Assembly (NCBI GenBank): GCA_016218575.1
Contig: JACRDN010000023.1
Location: forward strand, 62,001-126,000
Direction: 5' to 3'
DNA length: 64,000 bases
DNA from: Elusimicrobiota bacterium
GTDB taxonomy: Bacteria > Elusimicrobiota > Elusimicrobia > UBA1565 > UBA9628
Below, one piece after another: positions 8,133 through 63,690 of this stretch. Below the pieces are notes generated by a model that was not told the DNA's origin, did not search any database, and saw only the letters and a list, made by a program, of their open reading frames with translations. A program made the position numbers and the translations under genes. Positions within the stretch are counted from its first letter, which is position 1. The number at the start of each line of letters is the position of its first letter.

Positions 8133-9240
8133 TCAAATGCGCGTACGCGGACTCGTAATTGGCGATCATGTCTATGAGCTTGAATCTTTCGGTGATCGCG
8201 GCCTTGGCTCCTTCGCCAAGGCGAGATTTCAGCCCCGGGTCGTCCAAGAGCTGGGCCATTTTCCGGGCCAGAGCCGCGGCGTCCTTGGGCGGGACCAGGA
8301 GGCCGCTTTGGCCGTCTCGGAGCGCCTCCGGGATCCCGTCCACGGAGCTTGCCACCACGGGCAGGCCCAGGGCCATGGCTTCCAAGAGAGCGTTGGGCAG
8401 GCCCTCCCACAGCGAGGGCAAAGCGAAAAGATCGAAGCTCGACAGCCAGTGGACCACGTCCGGGCGCTCGCCCAAGAGCCAGACATGCCGCTCGAGGTTG
8501 AGTTTGCGGATCAGCTTCTCAAGGACCGGTCGTTGCGGTCCCTCTCCCAGGATGGCGCAGCGGACGGGGTAGCGAGTCTTAAGCAGGGCCAGGGCCTCGA
8601 TCAGGTATTCATGGCCCTTCTGGGCGTCCAGGCGGCCGATCGAGCCGATCAGTATGTCCTGGGCCCCCAGGCGGAGCTCCAGTCTCTTCTGCTGGCGCTC
8701 GAGCTTGGAGACCGGCCATTGGGCGATATCCACCCCATTGTAAATGGTCTTGACGCGCGCGGGGTTGTACCACAGCCTGCGGAGCAAATACTCGCGGCTG
8801 GCCTCGCACTCCGAGATGAGGAGGTCGTCGGCTCTCTTGAGCCATAGGTCCACGAGCAGGCTCCAGGCCGTGCGGCTGCGGTAGTTGACTCGGGGGGAGC
8901 TTACGAGCTTGAAGCGGCGGGCCGCGCGTTTCTTGGCTATGCGGCAGAGCTGGATGGCTTGGTACATGAAGGCGTGCACGATGTCGGGCTTGAGCTCGTC
9001 GAGGATATTGGCAAGCTCCTGAGCGTGGGCCGGGCTTGGGGTCTTTCCCGTGTCGAGCGAGCGCACGTCCACCCCCTGGGCCGAGAGCCTCTGGGCGTAG
9101 GCCCCCGGCGACTTCAGGCTCACCACCCCCGCCACCGTGAACTTCCTTGGGTCGAGCAAAGTCGCCAAAGTGTACAGCGTCTTCTCCGCCCCCCCCACCG
9201 TCGTGGACGTGCTGACAAAAACGATCCGGGTGCCAGTCAT
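8128..9240 (-). CDS. GT4-family glycosyltransferase
   Basis: 370 residues with the GT-B layout: the N-terminal Gly-rich loop VGGAEKTL near residue 16 and the C-terminal sugar-nucleotide motif EGLPNALLEAMALGLPVVAS near 280-300. It belongs to the GT4 retaining glycosyltransferases of LPS and exopolysaccharide assembly and is likely cytoplasmic. The first codons (ATG ACT GGC ACC) lie inside the left copy of the RAYT-associated 41-bp inverted repeat, so the start codon may have been supplied by the element. The natural family start would be near TRIVFVST. Confidence 0.85.
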   Translation of the reverse strand: MTGTRIVFVSTSTTVGGAEKTLYTLATLLDPRKFTVAGVVSLKSPGAYAQRLSAQGVDVRSLDTGKTPSPAHAQELANILDELKPDIVHAFMYQAIQLCRIAKKRAARRFKLVSSPRVNYRSRTAWSLLVDLWLKRADDLLISECEASREYLLRRLWYNPARVKTIYNGVDIAQWPVSKLERQQKRLELRLGAQDILIGSIGRLDAQKGHEYLIEALALLKTRYPVRCAILGEGPQRPVLEKLIRKLNLERHVWLLGERPDVVHWLSSFDLFALPSLWEGLPNALLEAMALGLPVVASSVDGIPEALRDGQSGLLVPPKDAAALARKMAQLLDDPGLKSRLGEGAKAAITERFKLIDMIANYESAYAHLI

Positions 9241-9268
9241 TTACATTCTTAACTTACTTAACTTCCGC
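9228..9268. repeat. Left copy of 41-bp inverted repeat flanking the RAYT gene
   Basis: This is the reverse complement of 10589-10629 with a single mismatch. The copy holds the C-terminal codons and stop of the small membrane protein gene (RKLSKLRM-stop) and the start codon of the GT4 gene. An internal TTAAGTAAGTTAA pattern is visible. Confidence 0.85.
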
Positions 9269-9669
9269 CAAGCGCCGGAAATGCAGATGCCGATGGCCAT
9301 GGATTTCGGCAATCCGAATATGATGTTGGCGACCGCCAGGCTTGTTGGGATGTCGAGCCAGACCGCTACTGACAATGTTCCCGAGAGGACCCAGAAACCC
9401 CAAAGAATCAGCCCGAATTGAGCGCCTCGGCGCGGCCAGCCGCCCTGGAGTGCTGGCTCTACTAGAATAAAGGCGAAAGCCGCGACCCAGCCGTTGATCG
9501 CTTCGGCGAAGAATCCAAGTCCCAAGGCCGGCGGATTCCTGAACGCCGGCTCGGTATGATGGGTCCAGTACGGCGCCGCCGCGATCGGGTTCCAGGAAAA
9601 TATGAAGTCCAAGAGTCCAAAGGCAAGGCCGGCCGTTGCCGCGAGCAGAATTAATAAAGGAAATTTCAT
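9241..9669 (-). CDS. Small four-helix membrane protein, unknown function
   Basis: 142 residues with about four hydrophobic segments (LLILLAATAGLAFGLL; the region around AFAFILVEPAL; LILWGFWVLSGTLSVAVWL; SLAVANIIFGL). I do not recognise the family; it has the look of DUF1761/DUF2177-type small integral membrane proteins. The C-terminal RKLSKLRM and the stop codon come from the inverted repeat. A TAGAAT box ends 6 bases before the ATG. It is divergent from the RAYT gene. Confidence 0.6.
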   Translation of the reverse strand: MKFPLLILLAATAGLAFGLLDFIFSWNPIAAAPYWTHHTEPAFRNPPALGLGFFAEAINGWVAAFAFILVEPALQGGWPRRGAQFGLILWGFWVLSGTLSVAVWLDIPTSLAVANIIFGLPKSMAIGICISGAWRKLSKLRM

Positions 9670-9675
9670 GATTTT

Positions 9676-9681
9676 ATTCTA
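9676..9681 (-). promoter_or_regulatory. TAGAAT -10-like box upstream of the small membrane protein gene
   Basis: TAGAAT on the minus strand is followed by six bases and the ATG at 9669. This spacing predicts a transcript that starts at the start codon. No Shine-Dalgarno sequence is present. Confidence 0.35.
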
Positions 9682-9742
9682 GATTTAAAATCTTCAAATT
9701 CCCAGTCGGGAACTTTTTCGGGGGTCCGCTCGTATAAGAGAT

Positions 9743-10603
9743 ATGGGTCGACCTCCGCGTCTAGATTTCCCGGGAGCTGTATTTCACGCCATGGCCAGGG
9801 GCAATGCGCGTGAGACGATATTCTTTCAGCCGCGGGATTGGGAGCGGTTCCTTGATATCTTGGCCGACCTGAAGAGGAGTCGCCCCTTCAAGCTGTATGC
9901 CTACTGTCTGATGTCTAATCATCTTCATCTGTTGATCGAGCCTCTGGCGGCCAGTATTTCCAATATCATGGGATTGCTATTGGGGCGTTACGCCAAATAC
10001 CTCAACGCGAGGCTGGACCGGGTGGGGCACGTGTTTCAAGACCGTTTCAAAACATCTCTTTGTCCAAAAGACGCGTACTTCAAGCATCTGGTCCGCTACA
10101 TCCATTTCAATCCGGTAAGAGCCGGTATGGCCGAAGATCCCGCTGGGTGGCCTTATTCCAGTCATCATGAGTATCTAGGTCAGCGCGGCCGAGGCCTCGT
10201 AGATCAAGATTTGCTTCTTTCCATGTTCCACGAAGATGTTCAGGTCGCGCGCTGGGAATACCGCAGCTACATGACCGAAGGGCTGGAGAGCGCTTCTACC
10301 ATTGTTCGGTCAATTCTTCCTGCGCCGGCCGAGCCGCTTCAAGCGGTGGGTGAATATTTCAATATTGATTCTTGCCGTGCCACTCTTGAGGAGCTTGCAG
10401 TGATCTCGGCCAAATCGTCCGGGATATCCCTTGCTCAACTGCGCAGTCCGGGAAAGGTTTCGGCGGTATGCCAAGCCCGGCGTCGCTTCGCGGCCGCGGC
10501 CTTCGATTCAGGTTATACCGTCACGGAAATCGCCCTCTATTTGCGTATATCCTTGCCGGCCGTCTCAAGAGCTTTAGGGGCGATCTCAGCGGAAGTTAAG
10601 TAA
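9743..10603 (+). CDS. REP-associated tyrosine transposase (RAYT, Y1_Tnp/IS200-like) with C-terminal HTH
   Basis: 286 residues. The HUH-type Y1 core is clear: MSNHLHLLIEP carries the HxH metal motif (about 58-68), followed by RVGHVFQDRFK and YIHFNPVRAG with candidate catalytic tyrosines. RAYTs are single-domain nucleases thought to spread palindromic REP sequences. Beyond the core there is a 100-residue C-terminal region ending in a helix-turn-helix-like segment (YTVTEIALYLRISLPAVSRAL), reminiscent of DnaA domain IV-like tails found in some RAYTs. The stop codon sits inside the right copy of the inverted repeat. The 3' end overlaps the convergent YcaQ-like gene by 67 bases. Confidence 0.9.
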   Translation: MGRPPRLDFPGAVFHAMARGNARETIFFQPRDWERFLDILADLKRSRPFKLYAYCLMSNHLHLLIEPLAASISNIMGLLLGRYAKYLNARLDRVGHVFQDRFKTSLCPKDAYFKHLVRYIHFNPVRAGMAEDPAGWPYSSHHEYLGQRGRGLVDQDLLLSMFHEDVQVARWEYRSYMTEGLESASTIVRSILPAPAEPLQAVGEYFNIDSCRATLEELAVISAKSSGISLAQLRSPGKVSAVCQARRRFAAAAFDSGYTVTEIALYLRISLPAVSRALGAISAEVK

Positions 10604-11778
10604 GTTAAGGATGTAAATGACTGGCACCCTACTACTTTCTCAGCTCCTAGAAAAGAGGCCAAGGAGCGCAAGGCCTCCATAGTGCCGGCGACGGCGCTGG
10701 CGCTCGGCTTAGAGTCGAAATGAACGGCGCGGACTTCAAGGCGCCTCTCGGCGCGGTGATTCTTGGGGTCGAGGCGCCCGATAAGCCTGCCTTCGTGGAG
10801 AATGGGCATGGTGTAATAGCCGTGGACGCGCCGGGCGGCCGGCGTGTAAACCTCGATTTTGTAGTCAAAGCCGAACAGACTCTTGGCCCGGGCGCGATGC
10901 CAGAGCAAAGAATCGAAGGGGGAGAGAAGCGTGGTCCCTTGAATCGGGTCTTGGGCGTCCAGGGCGGGCAGGTCTTCCGCCAGGACGTACCAGCGCCCGG
11001 GGCGGTTTTCAACGGCGATTTCCACCACCTCGCCTTCCTTGAGCAGGGCTCCCAGAGCGCGGCGTCGCTCGGCGGATTCAAAGCGGGGGAAGGTCAGATA
11101 GCGGGAAAGATCTGGCTCGGCCGCGACCCCCAGGGCGCGCAAGGTCTTGCGCAGGTGCCAGCGGGAGAAGGCGCCTCGCTTCATGGGCTCGACCGGGGCC
11201 AGCACGCGGCCGGCCAAGTCGTAGCTTTTCTGGAAGTGGCGGCGGGAGTGAACGGCCAGGCGCCCGCTCATCCAGAGGTAATGCAGGGCATGGTGGGCCG
11301 GCTTCCAGTCCCACCACCCTTTTGTCCTGTCCTGGGAAACCGGGCGGGCGAAAGCCGACGAGGAAAGCGGGCCGCGGCGCCGGATTTCATCCTCGACCCG
11401 CCGCAGGACTCTGGGGTGAGCCTTGAGCCAATCCGACCAGCCGGTGTGCCGCCTTTTGTAGTCGGCCATGGCGCGCGCCCAGCCGGGAAGGTCGGAGGCC
11501 GCCACAAGGCAGGCGGCGTGGGCCCAATACTCGATCAGGACGCGCTTTTCATAGATCATCCTGTCGAGAGCGTCTTTATCGTAGGCGCCGAAGCGGCTCC
11601 AGAGCGTCAGGTAATGGGCCCGCTCTAGGACGTTGATCGAGTCAAGCTGCAGCCCGCCCGCGTCCTCGACGAATCTCGAGAGAGATTCCTCAGTGAGAGG
11701 CCGCTTAAGCGGGAGGTCGAGGTGCTGGCGGCGCAGGAACAGGCGCGCCGCCGCCTCGGGCGCAACGGTTTTCATCAT
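10537..11778 (-). CDS. YcaQ/AlkZ-like winged-helix DNA glycosylase (HTH_42 family)
   Basis: 413 residues. It matches the YcaQ/AlkZ family that unhooks interstrand crosslinks and removes bulky alkylated bases. LQLDSINVLERAHYLTLWSR near residue 45 holds the catalytic Q-x-D motif. HGYYTMPILHEGRLIGRLDPK and the following region match the C-terminal half. The last 31 residues, from about VGCQSFTSLTYLTS onward, are read antisense through the RAYT inverted repeat and its gene end, so this tail is probably not native: the element seems to have replaced the original stop. A TAGAAT box lies 14 bases before the start. Confidence 0.85.
   Translation of the reverse strand: MMKTVAPEAAARLFLRRQHLDLPLKRPLTEESLSRFVEDAGGLQLDSINVLERAHYLTLWSRFGAYDKDALDRMIYEKRVLIEYWAHAACLVAASDLPGWARAMADYKRRHTGWSDWLKAHPRVLRRVEDEIRRRGPLSSSAFARPVSQDRTKGWWDWKPAHHALHYLWMSGRLAVHSRRHFQKSYDLAGRVLAPVEPMKRGAFSRWHLRKTLRALGVAAEPDLSRYLTFPRFESAERRRALGALLKEGEVVEIAVENRPGRWYVLAEDLPALDAQDPIQGTTLLSPFDSLLWHRARAKSLFGFDYKIEVYTPAARRVHGYYTMPILHEGRLIGRLDPKNHRAERRLEVRAVHFDSKPSASAVAGTMEALRSLASFLGAEKVVGCQSFTSLTYLTSAEIAPKALETAGKDIRK
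10589..10629. repeat. Right copy of 41-bp inverted repeat
   Basis: Matches the complement of 9228-9268 at 40 of 41 positions. It contains the RAYT stop codon (sense) and encodes residues of the YcaQ-like C-terminal tail (antisense). Confidence 0.85.
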
Positions 11779-25252: not shown

Positions 25253-26109
25253 GGCGCGTTCCAGTGATGGAGAATCGGCCCGCAGCCGGAACCGAGTCCC
25301 GGAGCGGCGCAGATCGCTCCAGCAACGTAATCTTTCGCGCGCAGCGCCGCCTCGCGCAAATTCAGCCCCAGCGCCAAATAGGCCGCCAAGGCAGCAGACA
25401 AAGTGCAGCCGGTTCCATGAGTATGGCGTGAATTGATTCTTGGGCCGTCCAATGTTAGGAATCTGACCCGATCGAACAGAATATCCTTGCAGCGAGCGCC
25501 CCGCGTATGACCACCCTTGAGCAAGACGGCTCGCGGACCGAAGGCGACTATGCTGCGCGCCGCCGCGCGCATCGCGGCTGCGCCGATAATTCGCCGCCCA
25601 ATGAGAGCCTCCGCCTCCGGCAGATTCGGCGTTACGATCCCTGCCAGCGGCAATAGACGCTTGATTAAAGCTTCCCGCGCGTCGATTTTCAGTAAAACCG
25701 ATCCGCCCTTGGCCACCATGACGGGGTCGATGACCAGATTATGGAATCGACAGCGGGTCAGAATCGCCGAAACCGTCTCGACGATCGCGGCGTTAGACAG
25801 CATCCCTGTTTTGACCGCGTCAACACCGAGATCATCAGCGACCGCCTCAAACTGCTTGACGATGAGTTGCGGGGGCATGTCCATGGCCGCCAGCACCCCG
25901 CGCGTGTTCTGTGCGGTGATCGCTGTGACGACGCTCATCCCATAGACTTTCAGCGCCGCGAAAGTCTTCAGGTCGGCTTGAATGCCTGCGCCACCGCCAG
26001 AGTCCGAGCCAGCGATGGTCAATACCCGAGGAACCGGAGGACGGTCTTGTCGAGTTGATGAGACCCGACCATAGGGCAGGGTTGGGCAGGAAAGGCGAAC
26101 TTCATTCAT
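25249..26109 (-). CDS. thiD: Hydroxymethylpyrimidine/phosphomethylpyrimidine kinase
   Basis: 286 residues of the ribokinase-like ThiD family. VLTIAGSDSGGGAGIQADLKT near 29-49 is the family signature, VVTAITAQNTRGV follows, DPVMVAKGG is the substrate loop, and HTHGTGCTLSAALAAYLA near 230 is the anion-hole/catalytic motif. It phosphorylates HMP and HMP-P. It is the first gene after the TPP riboswitch, whose 3' end contains its GGAGG ribosome-binding site. Confidence 0.95.
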   Translation of the reverse strand: MNEVRLSCPTLPYGRVSSTRQDRPPVPRVLTIAGSDSGGGAGIQADLKTFAALKVYGMSVVTAITAQNTRGVLAAMDMPPQLIVKQFEAVADDLGVDAVKTGMLSNAAIVETVSAILTRCRFHNLVIDPVMVAKGGSVLLKIDAREALIKRLLPLAGIVTPNLPEAEALIGRRIIGAAAMRAAARSIVAFGPRAVLLKGGHTRGARCKDILFDRVRFLTLDGPRINSRHTHGTGCTLSAALAAYLALGLNLREAALRAKDYVAGAICAAPGLGSGCGPILHHWNAP

Positions 26110-26110
26110 A

Positions 26111-26194
26111 TTCCCTCCGCTGGTATTACCCAGATCAGGTTTTTAGGGTCTCCCGAGGTATCGGGACTCTCAGCCTGGTCTCACCAAGCTCCCC
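26111..26194 (-). ncRNA. TPP riboswitch (THI element)
   Basis: The minus strand shows the aptamer signatures in order: GGGGAGCTTGG (P1 5' side), GGCTGAGAG, the P3 stem TCCCGA/TCGGGA, ACCTGATCTGGGTAATACC, and GCGGAGGGAAT ending two bases before the thiD ATG. The ribosome-binding GGAGG is part of the 3' P1 region and no terminator hairpin lies between aptamer and gene, so control is probably at translation start. A TAAAAT box lies at 26208-26213, just upstream. Confidence 0.95.
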
Positions 26195-26312
26195 AAACTT
26201 CTTCTTTATTTTACAAAAATTGACGATGGAATAGCATGTTTGGCGTATTCAATGTGTTGCATCCGCGACCCAAGTTTGAAAGCGTTCGTCCTGCTTCATG
26301 ACTCAGGGCTTG

Positions 26313-42466: not shown

Positions 42467-43217
42467 GGCGCCTCCAGGCAAACCAATCCCAGCTTCCCTC
42501 GAGCTTCAGGGAAAAATCGCGCGCCGTGTCCCAAGCCGTGAGCTCGGTGCGGCAGAGAAGTAGGGGGTCGCGGTCCGGCGCGTTCAAGCCGTAGCGGCTG
42601 CAGCCGCCGAGAGCGTAGCCGGCGGCGGAGGCCGCGTCTCGTACTCTCCGGTTGACGGCTCCATGAGGATAGGAGAGAGTTGTGACGGGCTTGCCCAGGA
42701 GGTCTTCCAAAATTTCGCGGCTTTTCACCAGCTCATTGGACAGCGCGTCAGCCCCGAGCGAGCTCAGGGCTTTATGGTGATGGCCATGGGCTCCAATCAG
42801 AACGTTTTTAAATTGGGAGAGTTCTTTCAACTCTTTTGCCGTCAGATAAAGGGAATTTTTGCTCAAGACATAGCTCGAAGCCACGAACACCGTGAACGGG
42901 ATGCCGCGCTTGGCCAGGAGGGGGGCCGCTACGCGCAAGGTGTCCTTGTAGCCATCGTCGAAGGTAATGGCAACTTGGAGACGGTCGGGGCGGGGCTTGG
43001 CAAAGAGAGCCCACTCCCAGTCGGCCCTGGCCTCGGCCAGGGCCTCCAGGTGTTCCTCGAATCGGCGCGGGGAGAGGCTGAGGCCGTAATGGTCGTTCGG
43101 AACGGTGGAGCCTATTGAATGGTACAAGAGCGCCCTCAGCCCGGCCTTCGGCCGGGCCGCAGGGCGCAGGGCCCAAAGGCGCGAGAGGCCTCGGTAGGCC
43201 AGGTGTTTTAGGCTCAT
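42450..43217 (-). CDS. Polysaccharide deacetylase (NodB domain)
   Basis: 255 residues. VAITFDDGYKDTLRVAAPLL (motif 1, catalytic Asp pair) near 84 and GAHGHHHKALSSL (motif 2, metal-binding HxxxH) near 143, with LSYPHGAVNRRV as motif 3. NodB-type enzymes remove N-acetyl groups from polysaccharides. The start overlaps the FemAB-like stop (ATGA) and the end overlaps the GT gene by 17 bases. No signal peptide is obvious, so the enzyme may act on a lipid-linked intermediate or use another export route. Confidence 0.9.
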   Translation of the reverse strand: MSLKHLAYRGLSRLWALRPAARPKAGLRALLYHSIGSTVPNDHYGLSLSPRRFEEHLEALAEARADWEWALFAKPRPDRLQVAITFDDGYKDTLRVAAPLLAKRGIPFTVFVASSYVLSKNSLYLTAKELKELSQFKNVLIGAHGHHHKALSSLGADALSNELVKSREILEDLLGKPVTTLSYPHGAVNRRVRDAASAAGYALGGCSRYGLNAPDRDPLLLCRTELTAWDTARDFSLKLEGSWDWFAWRRRDPAR

Positions 43218-44203
43218 GCTTTGGAGGCGAAACGGCTAAGAAGCGCCCCGCAGGGCCCGCGCAAAATTCCGGGCCAAGCCCAATCCCATTCGCCCAGGTA
43301 CTCGAGCTCGCGGGCCCCGGTCCCTTTCTTGAAGTCATGCACGCCCTTGGCCTTCTCGGGATCGGCTCCCCCGAGGTCGTAGGTCTTGACCCCGCGCTCG
43401 CGGCATATCTGGAGAAGATTCCAGAGGAGGGCATAGGAGGCGTAGCTTTGCCGTCCGGCCTGGGAGGAAGCGGCCAGAAGATCCCAAGCCTTGCCGTCCT
43501 GCGTAGCACAGGCGCGCAGGGCGATCGGGTTGCCTGCGTCGTCGTCGGCGCGTAGTAGTAGCCATGAGGAGCTGAAGTGTTTTAAAAGTGACCCCAGCTC
43601 CTCTTGGCGGTACTGCGCATGCATCCCTTTGTAATTCTCCATCATCCGGTACACTGCGATCACGTCCTCGGGTTTGGGATTCTCCCAAACCCGAGGACGT
43701 GATCGCTTCAGCCCCCGGCGCAAGTTGTGCGCCCAATTGGCCGAGAGCCCGCGCCGCAATTCCTCCTCGGGTGCTAGCTCCAGCAGGAAGGTGAGATTGC
43801 GGTTGAGCGCCTTGGTGGGGTGCTGCCAGCCGTTTTTTACCAGCGTCTCAACGGAGCCGTTCTGGGGACGGTACGAGCAGAATCGCATATAAACCGGTCC
43901 GCTCCCGCCGGACTCCCGTAAAACTGAACGCAGGCCATCGTCCCAAAGCTCGGGGCCGCCCAAGGGCCCGCCGCGGGCCCAGAGCACGGTGAACCCGAGG
44001 CGCCTCTTGGCGAGGAATTGCGTCGCGGCCAAAGGAGCGCCGTCCTCGCCAATGGCGAGGGCCCTCAAGGCGCGCCAGCCGAAGTTCTCCTTGTGGCGCG
44101 CCCAGGACGAGCCTTGGAAGGGGTTGCCGTCAGGCAACCCCTGGAGAATTGCATCCCAAGCCGCGTCCGGGTAGCTCTCGGGCAAAAGCCTCCAGGTCAC
44201 CAT
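43214..44203 (-). CDS. FemAB/GNAT-fold peptidyltransferase-like protein
   Basis: 329 residues from the ATG at 44203; a GTG six codons earlier is possible. Typical FemABX features: NPFQGSSWARHKENFGWRAL, HNLRRGLKRS in the first GNAT domain, and SYASYALLWNLLQICRERGVKTYDLGGADPEKAKGVHDFKKG in the second, ending in the conserved G-x-x-x-F-K-x-x-F-G-like stretch. FemAB enzymes add amino acids to lipid II; relatives in exopolysaccharide clusters (next to deacetylases, as here) probably aminoacylate glycans. A 51-bp perfect palindrome (43655-43705) and a 10-bp hairpin (44119-44142) lie inside the gene. Confidence 0.82.
   Translation of the reverse strand: MVTWRLLPESYPDAAWDAILQGLPDGNPFQGSSWARHKENFGWRALRALAIGEDGAPLAATQFLAKRRLGFTVLWARGGPLGGPELWDDGLRSVLRESGGSGPVYMRFCSYRPQNGSVETLVKNGWQHPTKALNRNLTFLLELAPEEELRRGLSANWAHNLRRGLKRSRPRVWENPKPEDVIAVYRMMENYKGMHAQYRQEELGSLLKHFSSSWLLLRADDDAGNPIALRACATQDGKAWDLLAASSQAGRQSYASYALLWNLLQICRERGVKTYDLGGADPEKAKGVHDFKKGTGARELEYLGEWDWAWPGILRGPCGALLSRFASKA
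43655..43705. repeat. 51-bp perfect palindrome (24-bp arms, 3-base loop) inside the FemAB-like gene
   Basis: The left arm 43655-43678 (GCGATCACGTCCTCGGGTTT...) is the exact reverse complement of 43682-43705, around the loop TTC. It encodes residues RSRPRVWENPKPEDVIA without disturbing the frame. Such a long perfect inverted repeat is far beyond chance. Confidence 0.9.
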
Positions 44204-45240
44204 AGGAAATGGGCGAGCCACACGTTCTTATAATGCTTGGGCGCGCGCGCGGCCACCGAGTCCGGCAGGTCGGGCCAGGGCAGCGGGTAAAGGCCGAGCC
44301 GCTTGAGGGCCGCTAGAGCTTTAGGCAATCCCTGCGGCTCGGCTCGGAAAGGGTAGCCGTAGGGAACGACGCCCTCGGGCAATGCCTCGAAGACAGGACG
44401 CAGCTCCGCTTGACACAGAGCGTTCTCCACGAGCGCATAAAGTTCTCTGCGCCGAGCCGCTTCAATCTCGGGATCGGCGACGGCGATGGGACGGCTGAGC
44501 TCCAGACATGGCTCGGCCGGCAAGGGGAGTTCGCGCTCTGCGGCCGGTTTTTCGGTCGAGCTGCCGTTTCCCAATCGGCGCAGTGTCCTGAAAAGCCGCA
44601 GGCCCGCCAGGCTTGCGCGCGCGCCGCAGGCCCCGGCCAGCATCCGATAGGAATTCTTGAGTTTGAACCGGAGGTCCCCGCTTGGAGCGAACGTCGGAGC
44701 GGGGCCGCTCTTCCAGGCGCGGCCGCCAGAGAGCGCCAAAGCGGCGCCGTTGGGCAGAGCCAGGCTCTTGCGCAGGCTGAAAATCCCCATGTCCGCGCGC
44801 AGGCCGAGGAGACGACCGTCCTCGTCCCGGCTGAAGAGACCGTGGGCGTTGTCCTCGATCAGGATGGCCCCCGTCCTCCGGCAATAGTCGCGGAAGGGCG
44901 CCAGGGACTGCGGGAAGCCGAAGAAATTCACCGCGACCACGGCCTTGGCGCCGGGCCAAGTCTCGGGAGGCGAGGCCGGTTCGAGCTCCGCGCTGACCGG
45001 GTAAAATGCCGGCCGGGCCCCGACTGCCGCCGCCGCGGACAAAAGATCCCGGCAAATGAACTCTGGAAAAAGGACATTCTCGCCGGGCCCGATGTCCGAG
45101 GCCCTCAGGCCGGCGGCCAGGGCCCGCCGGCCGAAGCTGTGGAAAGTCAGTTCGTGCCCCGGCGCCAAATCCTCGAGACGCCAAGGCGTGGCCGCCGGAG
45201 GCGGGGCGTAGACGGCGGCGGCGAGCGCCAAGTTATCCAC
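44197..45240 (-). CDS. DegT/DnrJ-like PLP-dependent aminotransferase-fold protein
   Basis: 347 residues from a GTG that lies inside a palindrome. GPGENVLFPEFICRDLLSAA, VVAVNFFGFPQSLAPFRDYC, ILIEDNAHGLFSRDEDG (PLP-contact Asp) and FSLRKSLALPNGAALAL, where Lys is in the place of the Schiff-base residue, give a DegT-like fold. The usual SGEGG after the lysine is replaced by LPNGA, as in the group of DegT relatives next to FemAB genes. Catalysis may differ from nucleotide-sugar aminotransferases. Confidence 0.7.
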   Translation of the reverse strand: MDNLALAAAVYAPPPAATPWRLEDLAPGHELTFHSFGRRALAAGLRASDIGPGENVLFPEFICRDLLSAAAAVGARPAFYPVSAELEPASPPETWPGAKAVVAVNFFGFPQSLAPFRDYCRRTGAILIEDNAHGLFSRDEDGRLLGLRADMGIFSLRKSLALPNGAALALSGGRAWKSGPAPTFAPSGDLRFKLKNSYRMLAGACGARASLAGLRLFRTLRRLGNGSSTEKPAAERELPLPAEPCLELSRPIAVADPEIEAARRRELYALVENALCQAELRPVFEALPEGVVPYGYPFRAEPQGLPKALAALKRLGLYPLPWPDLPDSVAARAPKHYKNVWLAHFLW

Positions 45241-45273
45241 AAAAACTTCCCGGGAAGTTTTTGTGGATAACTT
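45230..45273. repeat. 44-bp perfect palindrome with two inverted DnaA-box sequences at a gene junction
   Basis: AAGTTATCCAC at 45230 begins a perfectly self-complementary 44 bases centred on CCC/GGG. It contains TTATCCACA (45233-45241) and its complement TGTGGATAA (45262-45270), each a perfect consensus DnaA box. It includes the stop of the GT2 gene and the start of the DegT-like gene. A diverged relative is at 62448-62489. Confidence 0.9.
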
Positions 45274-46186
45274 TCCGGTCGAGCTCCCTCCAGGCCCAAG
45301 ATAGCGCCTTGACGGCGTTCTTGAGGTCGAACGGGAAGGTCCGGAGCATTTTCAGGGCGTACTGGCGCTGCTTCTCGGGCTCCTCGCCGTAGCTCATGAG
45401 CTGACCCAAAGCGGAGCGGTAGACTGCTGAAAGCCGCTTGCGTTTTCGCAAGCGGCTGATGAGGCCGTCGTCGTCGCCGAAGTATGTTTTGAAGTGGTCC
45501 TTGAGCAGGGCCTCCAGGTTGCCGTGGTGATACTCGATCCGCCGAGAGGCCGCGCGCTCGACCAGCTGGTACTCGCCTAGGACCTGGTCGAGGAAATGGA
45601 AGCGCGCCACGCGCGAGAGCCTCATCCAGAAATCGTAATCCTCCACGGTGTTGAACTCGGGGTTCTCGCGGAAGCCCCCGATCTCGAGGGCCTTGTCCCT
45701 AAGGAAAACCGAAGCCGAGGGGGAGAGCGCGTTGCCCCTAAAGAGCAGGCGCTCGTACATGCGAGGCTCGGTCGGGCCGTTGCGCGAAAGGCGGACGACC
45801 TTTCCGTCCTTGGTGACGTTCTCGTTGTGGCAGATAAGATCCGCTTCCGGGTGCCTCTCGAACTCGGACATCACGACCGCGAGCTTCTCCGGGCGCCAGA
45901 GGTCGTCGTGGTCAAGAAGCGCTATGTAGCGGCCCTCGGCCGCGCGCATGCCCGCGTTGCGGGCGGCGGCGATCTTCTTGTTGGGCTGACGCAGGCAGGA
46001 GCCAGACAGGTGGTGGCGGTTAAGGTAGTTTTCCACCACCTCATGCGTTCCATCCGAGGAGCCATCATCGGTCACCACGATCTCGTAGTCCGCGAAGGTC
46101 TGGGCCCGCACCGAGTCCAAGGTCTTCTCGATGAAGGCGGCGGCGTTGTAGGCGGGGATGACGACCGAAACCGTGGCCTTGGGCAT
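45233..46186 (-). CDS. GT2 glycosyltransferase
   Basis: 317 residues. VSVVIPAYNAAAFIEKTLDS, VTDDGSSDGT and LLDHDDLWRPEKLAVV are the GT2 nucleotide and DXD motifs; NTVEDYDFWMRLSRVARFHF is the acceptor-side ED motif. The C-terminal helical region contains an 11-bp perfect hairpin in the DNA (45432-45457). The last residues (VIHKNFPGSFCG) and the stop are read from the 44-bp palindrome, so the native C-terminus may have been altered by it. Confidence 0.9.
   Translation of the reverse strand: MPKATVSVVIPAYNAAAFIEKTLDSVRAQTFADYEIVVTDDGSSDGTHEVVENYLNRHHLSGSCLRQPNKKIAAARNAGMRAAEGRYIALLDHDDLWRPEKLAVVMSEFERHPEADLICHNENVTKDGKVVRLSRNGPTEPRMYERLLFRGNALSPSASVFLRDKALEIGGFRENPEFNTVEDYDFWMRLSRVARFHFLDQVLGEYQLVERAASRRIEYHHGNLEALLKDHFKTYFGDDDGLISRLRKRKRLSAVYRSALGQLMSYGEEPEKQRQYALKMLRTFPFDLKNAVKALSWAWRELDRKVIHKNFPGSFCG
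45432..45457. repeat. Perfect 11-bp hairpin inside the GT2 gene
   Basis: AGCCGCTTGCG and its exact complement around a TTTT loop. It encodes ISRLRKRKR in frame. Member of the compact in-gene hairpin set. Confidence 0.55.
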
Positions 46187-60644: not shown

Positions 60645-61686
60645 GACCATGAAAGAGTTCAGCATCGCGGGCCGCAAGATAGGCCCCGCTTACCCGCCCT
60701 TTATCATCGCGGAGGCCGGGATCAACCACGAGGGCAGCTTCAAGAAGGCTCTCCAGCTCGTGGACGCCGCCGCCGAGGCCAAGGCCGACTGCATCAAGTT
60801 CCAGTGCCATATCACCGAGGCCGAGATGATCCCGACCGACATGAGGCCGGGGAAGATCTCCAAGGAAAAGCTTTGGGACATCATCAAACGCTGCGAGCTC
60901 AACGAAGAGGAGGAGCGCAAGGTCAAGAGGCATTGCGAGAAAAAGGGCATCCTCTACATGTGCACGCCCTTCTCGCGCGAGGCCGCGGATAGGTTGAACG
61001 TGATGGGGGTGAGCTCTTTTAAGATCGGGTCAGGGGAATGCAACAACATTCCGCTCCTCGAGCATATCGCCAAGATGGGCAAGCCCACCATCCTCTCTAC
61101 GGGGATGAACGATGTCCCATCCATCCGCCGCTCCGCGGCGGTGTTCAGGCGCGCGGGGGTGCCCCTCATGCTCATGCACTGCACCTCCATGTATCCCACG
61201 CCCTACGAGAAGGTGCGCCTGGGTGCCATCGCGGACCTGCAAAGACAATTCGATCTTCCGGTGGGGCTTTCGGACCACTCCATCGGAATTTATACTTGCT
61301 TGGGCGCGGCGGCTTTGGGCGCGGTCGCCTTCGAGAAGCACTTCACCATCACCCGCAAGTGGCCGGGGCCTGACGTTCCCATCTCGATAGAGCCCCAGGA
61401 GTTGGCCGAACTGGTCAAGGGCGCTCGCGCCGTGCATAAAGCCTTGGGCGGAAATAAGAACATACTCCCCGAGGAACGGCCTGTCATAGAATTTGCCTAC
61501 GCATCGGTCGTCACCATCGCCCCGGTCAGGGCCGGGGAGGCCTTCTCCCGCGACAATGTCTGGGTCAAGCGCCCCGGCACGGGCAAGATCCTGGCCGAGG
61601 ACTTCAAGCGGGTGCTGGGCAAAAAGGCGGCGCGCGACATCGCCCCGGAGCGCCAGCTCACGCCCCATGACATCCGCGGCTGGTAG
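60637..61686 (+). CDS. N-acetylneuraminate/legionaminate synthase family (NeuB/LegI)
   Basis: 349 residues, overlapping the previous gene by eight bases (the ATG at 60649 is an alternative). FIIAEAGINHEGSFKKALQL, CTPFSREAADRLNVMGVSSFKIGSGE, ILSTGMNDV and VGLSDHSIGIYTCLGAAALGAVAFEKHFTI form the PEP-condensing TIM barrel; a SAF domain closes the C-terminus (VTIAPVRAGEAFSRDNVWVK). It condenses a hexosamine with PEP to a nine-carbon ulosonic acid. Confidence 0.93.
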   Translation: MAKTMKEFSIAGRKIGPAYPPFIIAEAGINHEGSFKKALQLVDAAAEAKADCIKFQCHITEAEMIPTDMRPGKISKEKLWDIIKRCELNEEEERKVKRHCEKKGILYMCTPFSREAADRLNVMGVSSFKIGSGECNNIPLLEHIAKMGKPTILSTGMNDVPSIRRSAAVFRRAGVPLMLMHCTSMYPTPYEKVRLGAIADLQRQFDLPVGLSDHSIGIYTCLGAAALGAVAFEKHFTITRKWPGPDVPISIEPQELAELVKGARAVHKALGGNKNILPEERPVIEFAYASVVTIAPVRAGEAFSRDNVWVKRPGTGKILAEDFKRVLGKKAARDIAPERQLTPHDIRGW

Positions 61687-62518
61687 CGCCCTAGTCACCG
61701 GAGCCGGGGGCCTTATCGGCCGCAGGCTCGCCTCTATCCTCGTAAACGCGGAGCGTCTGGACGCCCGGAATCTTCCCGCCGGCGGGGGCAAGGCCCGCGC
61801 GCTTTTCCACATGGCGGGGCTGACCTCGGCTTCGGCCTGCGAGGAGAATCCGGCGGCCGCCTACGAGGCCAACGTCGCGCTATTCCAGAGAACCCTCGAG
61901 CACGCGGTGCGGCGCGGGGTTTCCACGATAGTATTCCCCTCAAGCGGACTGGTCTACGGAGAGGCCCTGCTCCGCCCAGCCCTGGAGAGTGACTTGCCCA
62001 GGCCCGGCGGCTATTATGCCGCGACAAAACTTGCGGCTGAAGCGCTGCTACTTGGCGCCTGCCGGCGCTGGGGCCTGGCCGGGGTGGCGGCGCGGCTTTC
62101 CAACGTCTACGCCGAGGACATGCGTCCCGACACCATGTTCGGCGCGGTTTTCGCCCAACTGCGCGCGGGCAAGGAGCCCCGGGTGCGCGACTTAAGCCCG
62201 GTGCGGGATTTCCTTCACGTGGGCGACGCGGCCGAGGGCCTGCGCCGCCTGGCCGCCGTCGCCCGCCCGGGGGAGATGCTCGCCGTGAACCTGTCCACCG
62301 GCCGCGGTTTTTCCGTGGGCCAGGCGGTGGAGCTCGCGCGCAGAGCTTTTGGGCTACCGGAAAGGCTCTTGCCCTCTCAAGGCAAGGGCCCCACGTTGGT
62401 GCTGGATAATTCCTTGCTCTTCCAGCTCACGGGCTGGCGGCCCCCCGAGTTATCCACCAAACTTCTCCGGGAAATTTGCGTGGATAACTTCGGACCCAAG
62501 CCGGCAGGCCCCAAATGA
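61667..62518 (+). CDS. Extended-SDR epimerase/reductase in the nonulosonate operon
   Basis: 283 residues from the ATG at 61667, overlapping neuB by 20 bases. ALVTGAGGLIGRRLASILVN, ALFHMAGLTSASACEENPAA, VFPSSGLVYGEALLRP and GGYYAATKLAAEALLL (YxxxK) are SDR motifs, and NVYAEDMRPDTMFGAVFAQL follows. It is shorter than most sugar SDRs. It is not part of the standard LegBCHGIF set, so it may reduce or epimerise the product or its carrier sugar. The 3' coding end contains the diverged DnaA-box palindrome (62448-62489). Confidence 0.8.
   Translation: MTSAAGSALVTGAGGLIGRRLASILVNAERLDARNLPAGGGKARALFHMAGLTSASACEENPAAAYEANVALFQRTLEHAVRRGVSTIVFPSSGLVYGEALLRPALESDLPRPGGYYAATKLAAEALLLGACRRWGLAGVAARLSNVYAEDMRPDTMFGAVFAQLRAGKEPRVRDLSPVRDFLHVGDAAEGLRRLAAVARPGEMLAVNLSTGRGFSVGQAVELARRAFGLPERLLPSQGKGPTLVLDNSLLFQLTGWRPPELSTKLLREICVDNFGPKPAGPK
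62448..62489. repeat. Diverged copy of the DnaA-box palindrome at the end of the SDR gene
   Basis: AGTTATCCAC and GTGGATAACT bracket a 42-base imperfect palindrome with the same layout and a CC/GG centre as 45230-45273; 15 of 20 arm positions pair when counted from GTTATCCAC. Each arm holds TTATCCAC followed by C or G instead of A. It lies 26 bases before the start of the NeuC-like gene. Confidence 0.7.
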
Positions 62519-63690
62519 AGCGGCGGGTGATCGCGGTCTACACCGGCAATCGGGCCGAGTACGGCCTGCAGTACCCTATTTTAAGGGCGATCGCGGCGGA
62601 CAAAAGGCTCGCCTATAAACTTCTAGTATCGGGCGCCCATCTTCAGCAGGCCTTCGGCAGGACCAAGGCCGAGATCGCCAAGGACGGCTTCGATGTCCAC
62701 GCCGAGGTCAAGATCGCCATGGGCGACGACAGCCTTTTCGGCACGGCCCAGGCCATCGGCTCGGGAATATTGAGCCTCAGCCGGGTTCTCGCCAGGCTTA
62801 AGCCGGACATTCTTGTCGTCTACGCCGACCGCTTCGAGGGCTTCTCGGCCGTGATCACCGGCACCCAGATGAATATTCCCACGGCGCACGTGGAGGGGGG
62901 CGACATCACCGAGGGCGGGGCCTTGGACGACTCGGTGCGCCACGCCATGACCAAGCTCGCCCATCTTCATTTCACCACCAACGAGGAGGCGGCCGAGCGC
63001 GTGCGCAAGTTGGGTGAGGAGCCCTGGCGGGTGCACAATGTGGGGTTTCCGGCAGTAGATCTTGTCAGGGCTGGCCTTTTGGCCAGCCCCGAAGAGCTTT
63101 TACAGCGTTTTGGAGTGGACGTTGGCAAGCCCTTGGTGGTATTCACCCAGCATTCCGTGACCACAGAGTATGACGAGGCCGGCGCTCAGGTCCGGCCGGC
63201 CTTAAAGGCGATGGAGCGCCTGGCTCGCGAGGGGGTCCAGATCCTGCTGACCTACCCGAATAACGACGCCGGGGGGCGCCGCATCATCGCGGAACTGGAA
63301 AAGCTCCGGCGCCGTAATGTCCCCAACCTCCAGGTGCATGCGAGCCTTGGGCGCTACAACTACCACGGGGCCCTAGCCTTGCCCCGGGCCGTGTGCGTCG
63401 GGAACTCCTCCTCGGGCATCAAGGAGACCCCGGCCTTGGGCTGCCCCTTCGTCAACGTGGGCTCCCGGCAGAATGGGCGCCTGCGCGGCGGCAACGTCCT
63501 GGACGTGGGCTACGACGAGGAAAAGATTTACGAGGCTTGCCGCAAGGCCCTTTTTGATGAGACCTTCCGCCGCCTCTGCCGCGGCGGCGGCAACCCTTAC
63601 GGCATCGGAGACGCCGGTCCCAAGATCGCCCAAGTTCTCGCCACCGTTCCTCTCGATAAGAGGCTTCTGCAAAAGAAGATGACGTATTGA
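62515..63690 (+). CDS. Hydrolysing UDP-HexNAc 2-epimerase (NeuC/LegG-like)
   Basis: 391 residues, starting in an ATGA overlap with the SDR stop. RRVIAVYTGNRAEYGLQYPI, DILVVYADRFEGFSAVITGT, PTAHVEGGDITEGGALDDSV and HFTTNEEAAERVRKLGEEPW are the NeuC/LegG/PseG-type GT-B epimerase motifs; VVFTQHSVTTEYDEAGAQ and VCVGNSSSGIKETPALGCPF close the fold. It removes UDP and epimerises C2 to give the free hexose that NeuB condenses. Strong match. Confidence 0.92.
   Translation: MKRRVIAVYTGNRAEYGLQYPILRAIAADKRLAYKLLVSGAHLQQAFGRTKAEIAKDGFDVHAEVKIAMGDDSLFGTAQAIGSGILSLSRVLARLKPDILVVYADRFEGFSAVITGTQMNIPTAHVEGGDITEGGALDDSVRHAMTKLAHLHFTTNEEAAERVRKLGEEPWRVHNVGFPAVDLVRAGLLASPEELLQRFGVDVGKPLVVFTQHSVTTEYDEAGAQVRPALKAMERLAREGVQILLTYPNNDAGGRRIIAELEKLRRRNVPNLQVHASLGRYNYHGALALPRAVCVGNSSSGIKETPALGCPFVNVGSRQNGRLRGGNVLDVGYDEEKIYEACRKALFDETFRRLCRGGGNPYGIGDAGPKIAQVLATVPLDKRLLQKKMTY

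Follow-up and report, generated by a model that had tools for sequence, protein, structure and literature searches.

The palindromes of the window

The window analysed here, a stretch of 64,000 nucleotides from a draft genome of an Elusimicrobiota bacterium (G000; 2.82 Mb in 23 contigs), contains a perfect 44-bp palindrome of the sequence AAGTTATCCACAAAAACTTCCCGGGAAGTTTTTGTGGATAACTT at the junction of two minus-strand genes and a diverged copy of it beside a second pair of genes. The relevant features are the following:

44197..45240, minus strand: DegT/DnrJ/EryC1-type aminotransferase ORF (PF01041, E 2.4e-11)

45230..45273, no strand: 44-bp perfect palindrome, copy 1 (core 45231-45272; 66.7 bits with covariance model R1, on both strands)

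45233..45241, plus strand: consensus DnaA box TTATCCACA, left arm of copy 1

45262..45270, minus strand: consensus DnaA box TTATCCACA, right arm of copy 1

45233..46186, minus strand: family 2 glycosyltransferase ORF (PF00535, E 1.3e-33)

61667..62518, plus strand: NAD-dependent epimerase/dehydratase ORF reading through copy 2

62448..62489, no strand: diverged copy 2 with boxes TTATCCACC / TTATCCACG (model scores 55.8 / 43.3 bits)

62515..63690, plus strand: UDP-GlcNAc 2-epimerase ORF (PF02350, E 4.5e-70), starting 26 bp past copy 2

A preliminary description of the window had presented copy 1 as a perfect palindrome with two perfect inverted DnaA boxes that spans a stop and a start codon, and we indeed confirmed both statements. 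On the minus strand, the element encodes the final 12 residues of the glycosyltransferase (VIHKNFPGSFCG) together with its TAA stop and also contains the GTG start of the aminotransferase, which overlaps the upstream glycosyltransferase stop in GTGGATAA; read in either direction, a G+C-rich stem is followed by a run of five T. The 42-bp relative at 62448-62489 is real but does not share this layout as had been proposed, given that both of its boxes are one off the DnaA consensus (at position 9) and that it lies in frame within the 3' end of the NAD-epimerase ORF (ELSTKLLREICVDNFGPKPAGPK and the stop) instead of spanning a stop and a start codon.

Elsewhere in the window, we noted a perfect inverted repeat of 24 bp around a 3-nt loop (43656-43706) within a FemAB-like ORF (43214-44221, minus strand) and a TPP riboswitch (26095-26205, minus strand; Rfam RF00059, 62.7 bits).

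Copy number, taxonomic range and sequence evolution

A search for the exact ends of the element (GTTATCCAC-N20-30-GTGGATAAC) found 23 copies in G000, compared to none for the reversed pattern used as control, and a covariance model trained on 29 copies from nine genomes detected around 65, including both copies of the window. The palindrome is therefore more than a product of chance, and the many further copies that a repeat family would have, as considered in the preliminary description, do exist. Exact-ended copies are found in nine of the 341 genomes of the phylum, all of them from one order (23 in G000, 13 in G225, 9 in G016 and one to three in each of the others), and covariance-model matches in 21 of the 56 genomes of this order. 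Scanning for the same ends further afield returned at least 117 stretches in GTDB genomes and 54 in viral contigs, mostly groups of DnaA boxes without a self-complementary interior; among the matches listed, the named ones with fully palindromic interiors are Elusimicrobia MAGs (e.g., JACQWX01 and MGUL01).

The elements are 39 to 44 bp long and nearly perfectly self-complementary, within the 20 to 60 bp of palindromic sequence that characterise REP-like elements, and their ends read AGTTATCCAC/GTGGATAACT with a near-constant (A)GTTATCCAC. Conservation across the 126 half-sites (63 copies) is strong in the outer core A-G-TTATCCAC, where C10 is invariant and C8, T4 and T6 nearly so, while position 5 of the DnaA box is C or T and position 9 is A in 87 half-sites and C in many copies. 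Changes in one outer arm are matched in the opposite arm as C/C at 2 (five copies), T/T at 7 (three copies) and C/C at 9 (three copies), and matched changes elsewhere include TTATCCCC...GGGGATAA in G226 and AATTATCCAC...GTGGATAAAT in G005. The inner arms are complementary in each genome, with an identity of 0.88 within genomes but only 0.46 between them, where they are unrelated; unlike the constancy of the outer arms, which is partly ascertained because copies were found via these ends, this result is free of such bias. The dispersed repeat evolves in concert, either constrained to remain self-complementary or subject to a symmetry-restoring mutational process, and self-complementarity could be kept by mutation (hairpin-templated correction) and not by function. 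The flanks of nearly all 63 copies are unrelated, with sharing limited to L005/L006, L007/L009/L010, L011/L299 and L020/L303, so that the palindrome itself is the unit.

Placement at gene ends

In line with the extragenic nature of REP-like elements, 53 of the 63 copies in G000 lie between genes, including one at a contig edge, compared to 12% of random positions; the other ten sit mostly at the extreme 3' end of an ORF. Compared to random non-coding placement, copies are strongly enriched at gene 3' ends (22 within 10 bp versus 7.5 expected; 43 within 60 bp versus 16.2 expected), whereas gene 5' ends, at which our simple codon-based gene calls are approximate, remain at background (7 versus 7.3 and 18 versus 16.8, respectively). 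Among the 38 copies of other genomes, 18 lie within 30 bp of a 3' end and 8 within 30 bp of a 5' end. The gaps that harbor the copies of G000 are tandem in 27 cases, convergent in 16 and divergent in 9; an expected location at gene junctions thus held true, but a shared strand orientation of the copies has no meaning for a symmetric element. The idea that the palindrome regulates the glycan genes found no support, with copies located at the ends of genes of all kinds. We also looked for insertions common to different genera and found homologous neighbors, but where this was checked, the element did not occupy the same side of the gene.

A RAYT-derived protein as candidate partner

In G016, a relative of Y1 transposases is encoded between two copies of the palindrome. 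Its orthologue group (alignment A3), which is single-copy, comprises 32 of the 56 genomes of the order (more than 390 bits, with the next best at 170) and is represented in G000 by a conserved, single-copy and catalytically degenerate member on contig C19 (242670-243623). The N-terminus of this RAYT-derived protein folds like TnpA-REP 4er8, its C-terminus has a weak match to Bac_DnaA_C below the curated cut-off, and the top PDB match of its profile is bacterial DnaA (2hcb/1l8q, E 4e-4). None of the 27 aligned members retains the first histidine of the HUH motif, nor is the catalytic tyrosine conserved, while a C-terminal FxRTPSAxSQ segment is conserved with TPS in place of the DHT recognition residues of DnaA. 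Taken together, the protein probably is a domesticated DNA-binding protein that does not cleave its target.

It is a possible yet doubtful explanation that the palindromes are binding sites and the REP-like partner of this protein with its tail resembling DnaA domain IV, which might then have been domesticated as a regulator or nucleoid protein. The gene occurs in 16 of 18 genomes with at least two model matches and in 16 of the 38 others (Fisher p 0.0012, ignoring relatedness), though this association is weak within genera (p 0.17 for g8 and 0.03 or 0.14 for g11) and G226 and G228 have palindromes without the gene. Among 30 RAYT loci scanned, one is closely flanked by copies (L231) and another has a copy 0.7 kb away; the distance from the RAYT-derived gene is 0.7 kb in G014 and about 2.2 kb in G233. 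A cognate RAYT with intact HUH motif and tyrosine that is flanked by palindromes was not found at these 30 loci or among the 27 aligned proteins. The REPtron-like arrangement in G016 is weakened as proof of a partnership by the syntenic locus of G009, where the gene lacks copies, and by the location of one of the two flanking copies inside a transposon-derived TIR insert. Because of the weak signal within genera, the gene-free G226 and G228, the synteny with G009 and the insert in G016, we treat the partnership as a lead and the protein as a candidate partner.

The window itself harbors another Y1-transposase gene (RAYT/TIRYT-like, at about 9230-10630) with a C-terminal HTH and a long flanking inverted repeat (GGGTGCCAGTCATTTACATTCTTAACTTACTTAACTTCCGC). 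This RAYT (9.7-10.6 kb) was dismissed as a partner based on its different flanking repeat and the absence of any palindrome nearby. In G009, the 3' end of a RAYT gene is followed by its own inverted copy, forming a palindrome of ca. 54 bp (CTCGAGCAGGGGACTTAGTCCGGCGCC and its complement; L222 2907-2958).

DnaA boxes and a possible role in titration

The G000 draft contains 74 consensus TTATNCACA boxes compared to 9 matches of the reversed pattern and 8 to 16 boxes in three relatives, and 66 of these 74 fall into palindrome copies by their coordinates. Consensus boxes thus mark the copies of G000 but not those of several relatives: most copies seen in G016, G226, G233 or G028 read TTATCCACC or TTATCCCC, outside the DnaA-box consensus TT[AT]TNCACA (PMC6006769). 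Since most copies are TTATCCACC in G016 and TTATCCCC in G226, the family does not conserve a perfect DnaA box, with position 9 being free and, in some genomes, position 7 as well. The recognition helix in domain IV of G016 DnaA is canonical (GGKDHTTVMHA), and TTATCCACA and TTGTCCACA are found by the start of the dnaA gene, which makes binding of DnaA to copies with TTATCCACA a fair inference.

We did not find dnaA in the G000 draft (97% complete), where the PF00308 matches are weak DnaA-like ATPases only (C20:73988 and C2:477; best E 6e-27), whereas the DnaA proteins of relatives reach E-values of 1e-65 to 1e-70. This is probably an assembly gap, and we rejected a genuine loss because 4 of 44 genomes of the family have no strong match, about what incompleteness would give.

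The abundance of consensus boxes in the copies of G000 and the canonical DnaA of G016 could suggest that the palindromes are sites of DnaA titration or cell cycle control that would bind DnaA to buffer or time initiation, similar to datA or DnaA-box clusters, and the T/T pairs among the matched changes indeed fall on position 5 of the box, a free position of the DnaA consensus. We consider such a role unlikely as an explanation of the family, given the frequent C at position 9 and the several genomes with copies mostly outside the consensus; DnaA binding would also not explain the self-complementary inner arms, and the copies, instead of forming clusters, are dispersed singly over gene ends.

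Transcription termination and carriage in transposons

The strong 3'-end placement, the larger number of convergent (16) than divergent (9) gaps and the G+C-rich stem with T5 in both directions of the window copy are features that bidirectional transcription terminators or mRNA 3'-end hairpins would have. However, A5/T5 runs are kept in only 13 of the 63 copies, and those without them are placed alike (a 3' end lies within 30 bp in 9 of 21 and 16 of 29 cases, versus 8 of 13 with runs); we therefore rejected termination as a general explanation. T runs are missing from the inner arms of other genomes, and the constant TTATCC ends would be unnecessary for termination, so that we regard this interpretation as improbable. 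No match to the palindromes was found in Rfam at gathering score, the only match in the window being the TPP riboswitch.

An IS1182-family element of G016 (L033 142-1574; ends GAGCAATTAGTCGGCGC) has a palindrome just inside one end, as does its deletion derivative, which is located upstream of the RAYT in L326, and three copies in G000 (L007, L009 and L010) lie in a small MITE with AGTGCTC(C/T)GACCG ends. With copies in these carriers, it is clear that the palindrome can ride unrelated transposons as a passenger. That the palindromes are sub-terminal or internal parts of ordinary DDE transposons or MITEs is nevertheless highly improbable and refuted for most copies by their unrelated flanks, and the carriers are themselves unrelated to each other.

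A lineage-specific family of REP-like elements

REP-type repeats are among the most common repeats of bacteria, though their mode of spread is poorly known. In all likelihood, the palindrome of the window is a member of a lineage-specific REP-like family that has spread non-autonomously within the genomes of one Elusimicrobiota order. The suggestion of a REP-like element built on DnaA boxes, one of several offered in the preliminary description, is thus well supported by the number of copies, their extragenic location at gene ends, their palindromic nature and their concerted evolution within genomes. We found no description of this family in the open-access literature and consider it new. Recombination sites of attC-like or dif-like type were dropped as an alternative, since attC sites end in RYYYAAC/GTTRRRY and those of XerCD contain a short asymmetric spacer.

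The mobility of the REP-like palindromes is inferred from their dispersal and homogenisation; no exact empty counterpart of an occupied site was found among the genomes compared, which comprise one per species. Their active form may be the hairpin of one strand, which replication would expose and whose TTATCC foot would be bound in trans, and their placement behind genes could reflect an insertion preference, selection against harm or both. Spread would depend on a trans-acting factor, for which the RAYT-derived protein with its C-terminus resembling DnaA domain IV is the best candidate partner, though the present-day proteins are devoid of the catalytic residues and we found no enzyme with an intact active site tied to the family. 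Judging from their consensus ends, the copies of G000 are very probably bound by the host's DnaA.

With even less confidence than for the partnership as such, we speculate that the repeats and the RAYT-derived protein might share the recognition code of the replication initiator. A hairpin foot shaped like a DnaA box would then be read by the DnaA-like tail or by DnaA itself, tying spread to replication and turning the repeats into the main chromosomal store of DnaA boxes. The ends of the palindrome match the site of DnaA, the protein that starts replication, and its copies hold most such sites in G000; if DnaA binds them, they would be a natural repeat family that multiplies consensus DnaA boxes several-fold in one genome and would be useful for tests of titration. 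The palindromes are also a concrete candidate site for the DnaA-like C-terminal domain of RAYT relatives, the target of which was left open in a previous survey (PMC6006769).

Comparison with known systems

Chromosomal DnaA-box clusters, datA and DARS resemble the palindromes in having consensus boxes outside any known origin at which DnaA could be retained, as in titration on the chromosome (PMC12371093), but form clusters at few loci instead of scattered single palindromes at gene ends.

The closest parallel in organization is with REPs, palindromic units (BIMEs) and REPINs mobilised by TnpA-REP (RAYT), which are likewise short, palindromic, extragenic, near gene ends, capable of forming hairpins and present in tens of copies with genome-specific sequence classes (PMC3116915, PMC6006769). 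Unlike these, the Elusimicrobiota palindrome is nearly perfect with a constant 10-bp end that matches the DnaA box, its copies are mostly single and not paired, and no catalytically intact RAYT is tied to it. The GT[AG]G 5' foot that lies outside the imperfect stem of canonical REPs (TnpA-REP subclasses 2.2, 2.4, 2.5, 2.7 and 2.8) is absent from the palindromes, where the foot is AGTT and GTGG occurs solely inside the 3' arm. Lacking both this foot and an intact cognate RAYT, the family is REP-like in the broad sense but is not filed under the TnpA-REP system. The "double foot" REPs of TnpA-Y1 subclass 2.4 are similarly symmetric, with a foot and its complement at both ends (PMC6006769), but the foot of the Elusimicrobiota family is AGTTATCCAC and not GT[AG]G.

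For the candidate partner, the same domain layout is known from TnpA-Y1 subclass 2.1.2 (TIRYT), for which Quentin et al. described a C-terminal Bac_DnaA_C tail (PMC6006769). No REP-like sequences were found near genes of subclass 2.1, and their flanking motifs are unlike DnaA boxes (PMC6006769). In Elusimicrobiota, by contrast, DnaA-box palindromes co-occur with such a protein, albeit a catalytically degenerate one. To the best of our knowledge of the open-access literature, this is the first pairing of a RAYT relative with a Bac_DnaA_C-like tail and DnaA-box palindromes in the same genomes.
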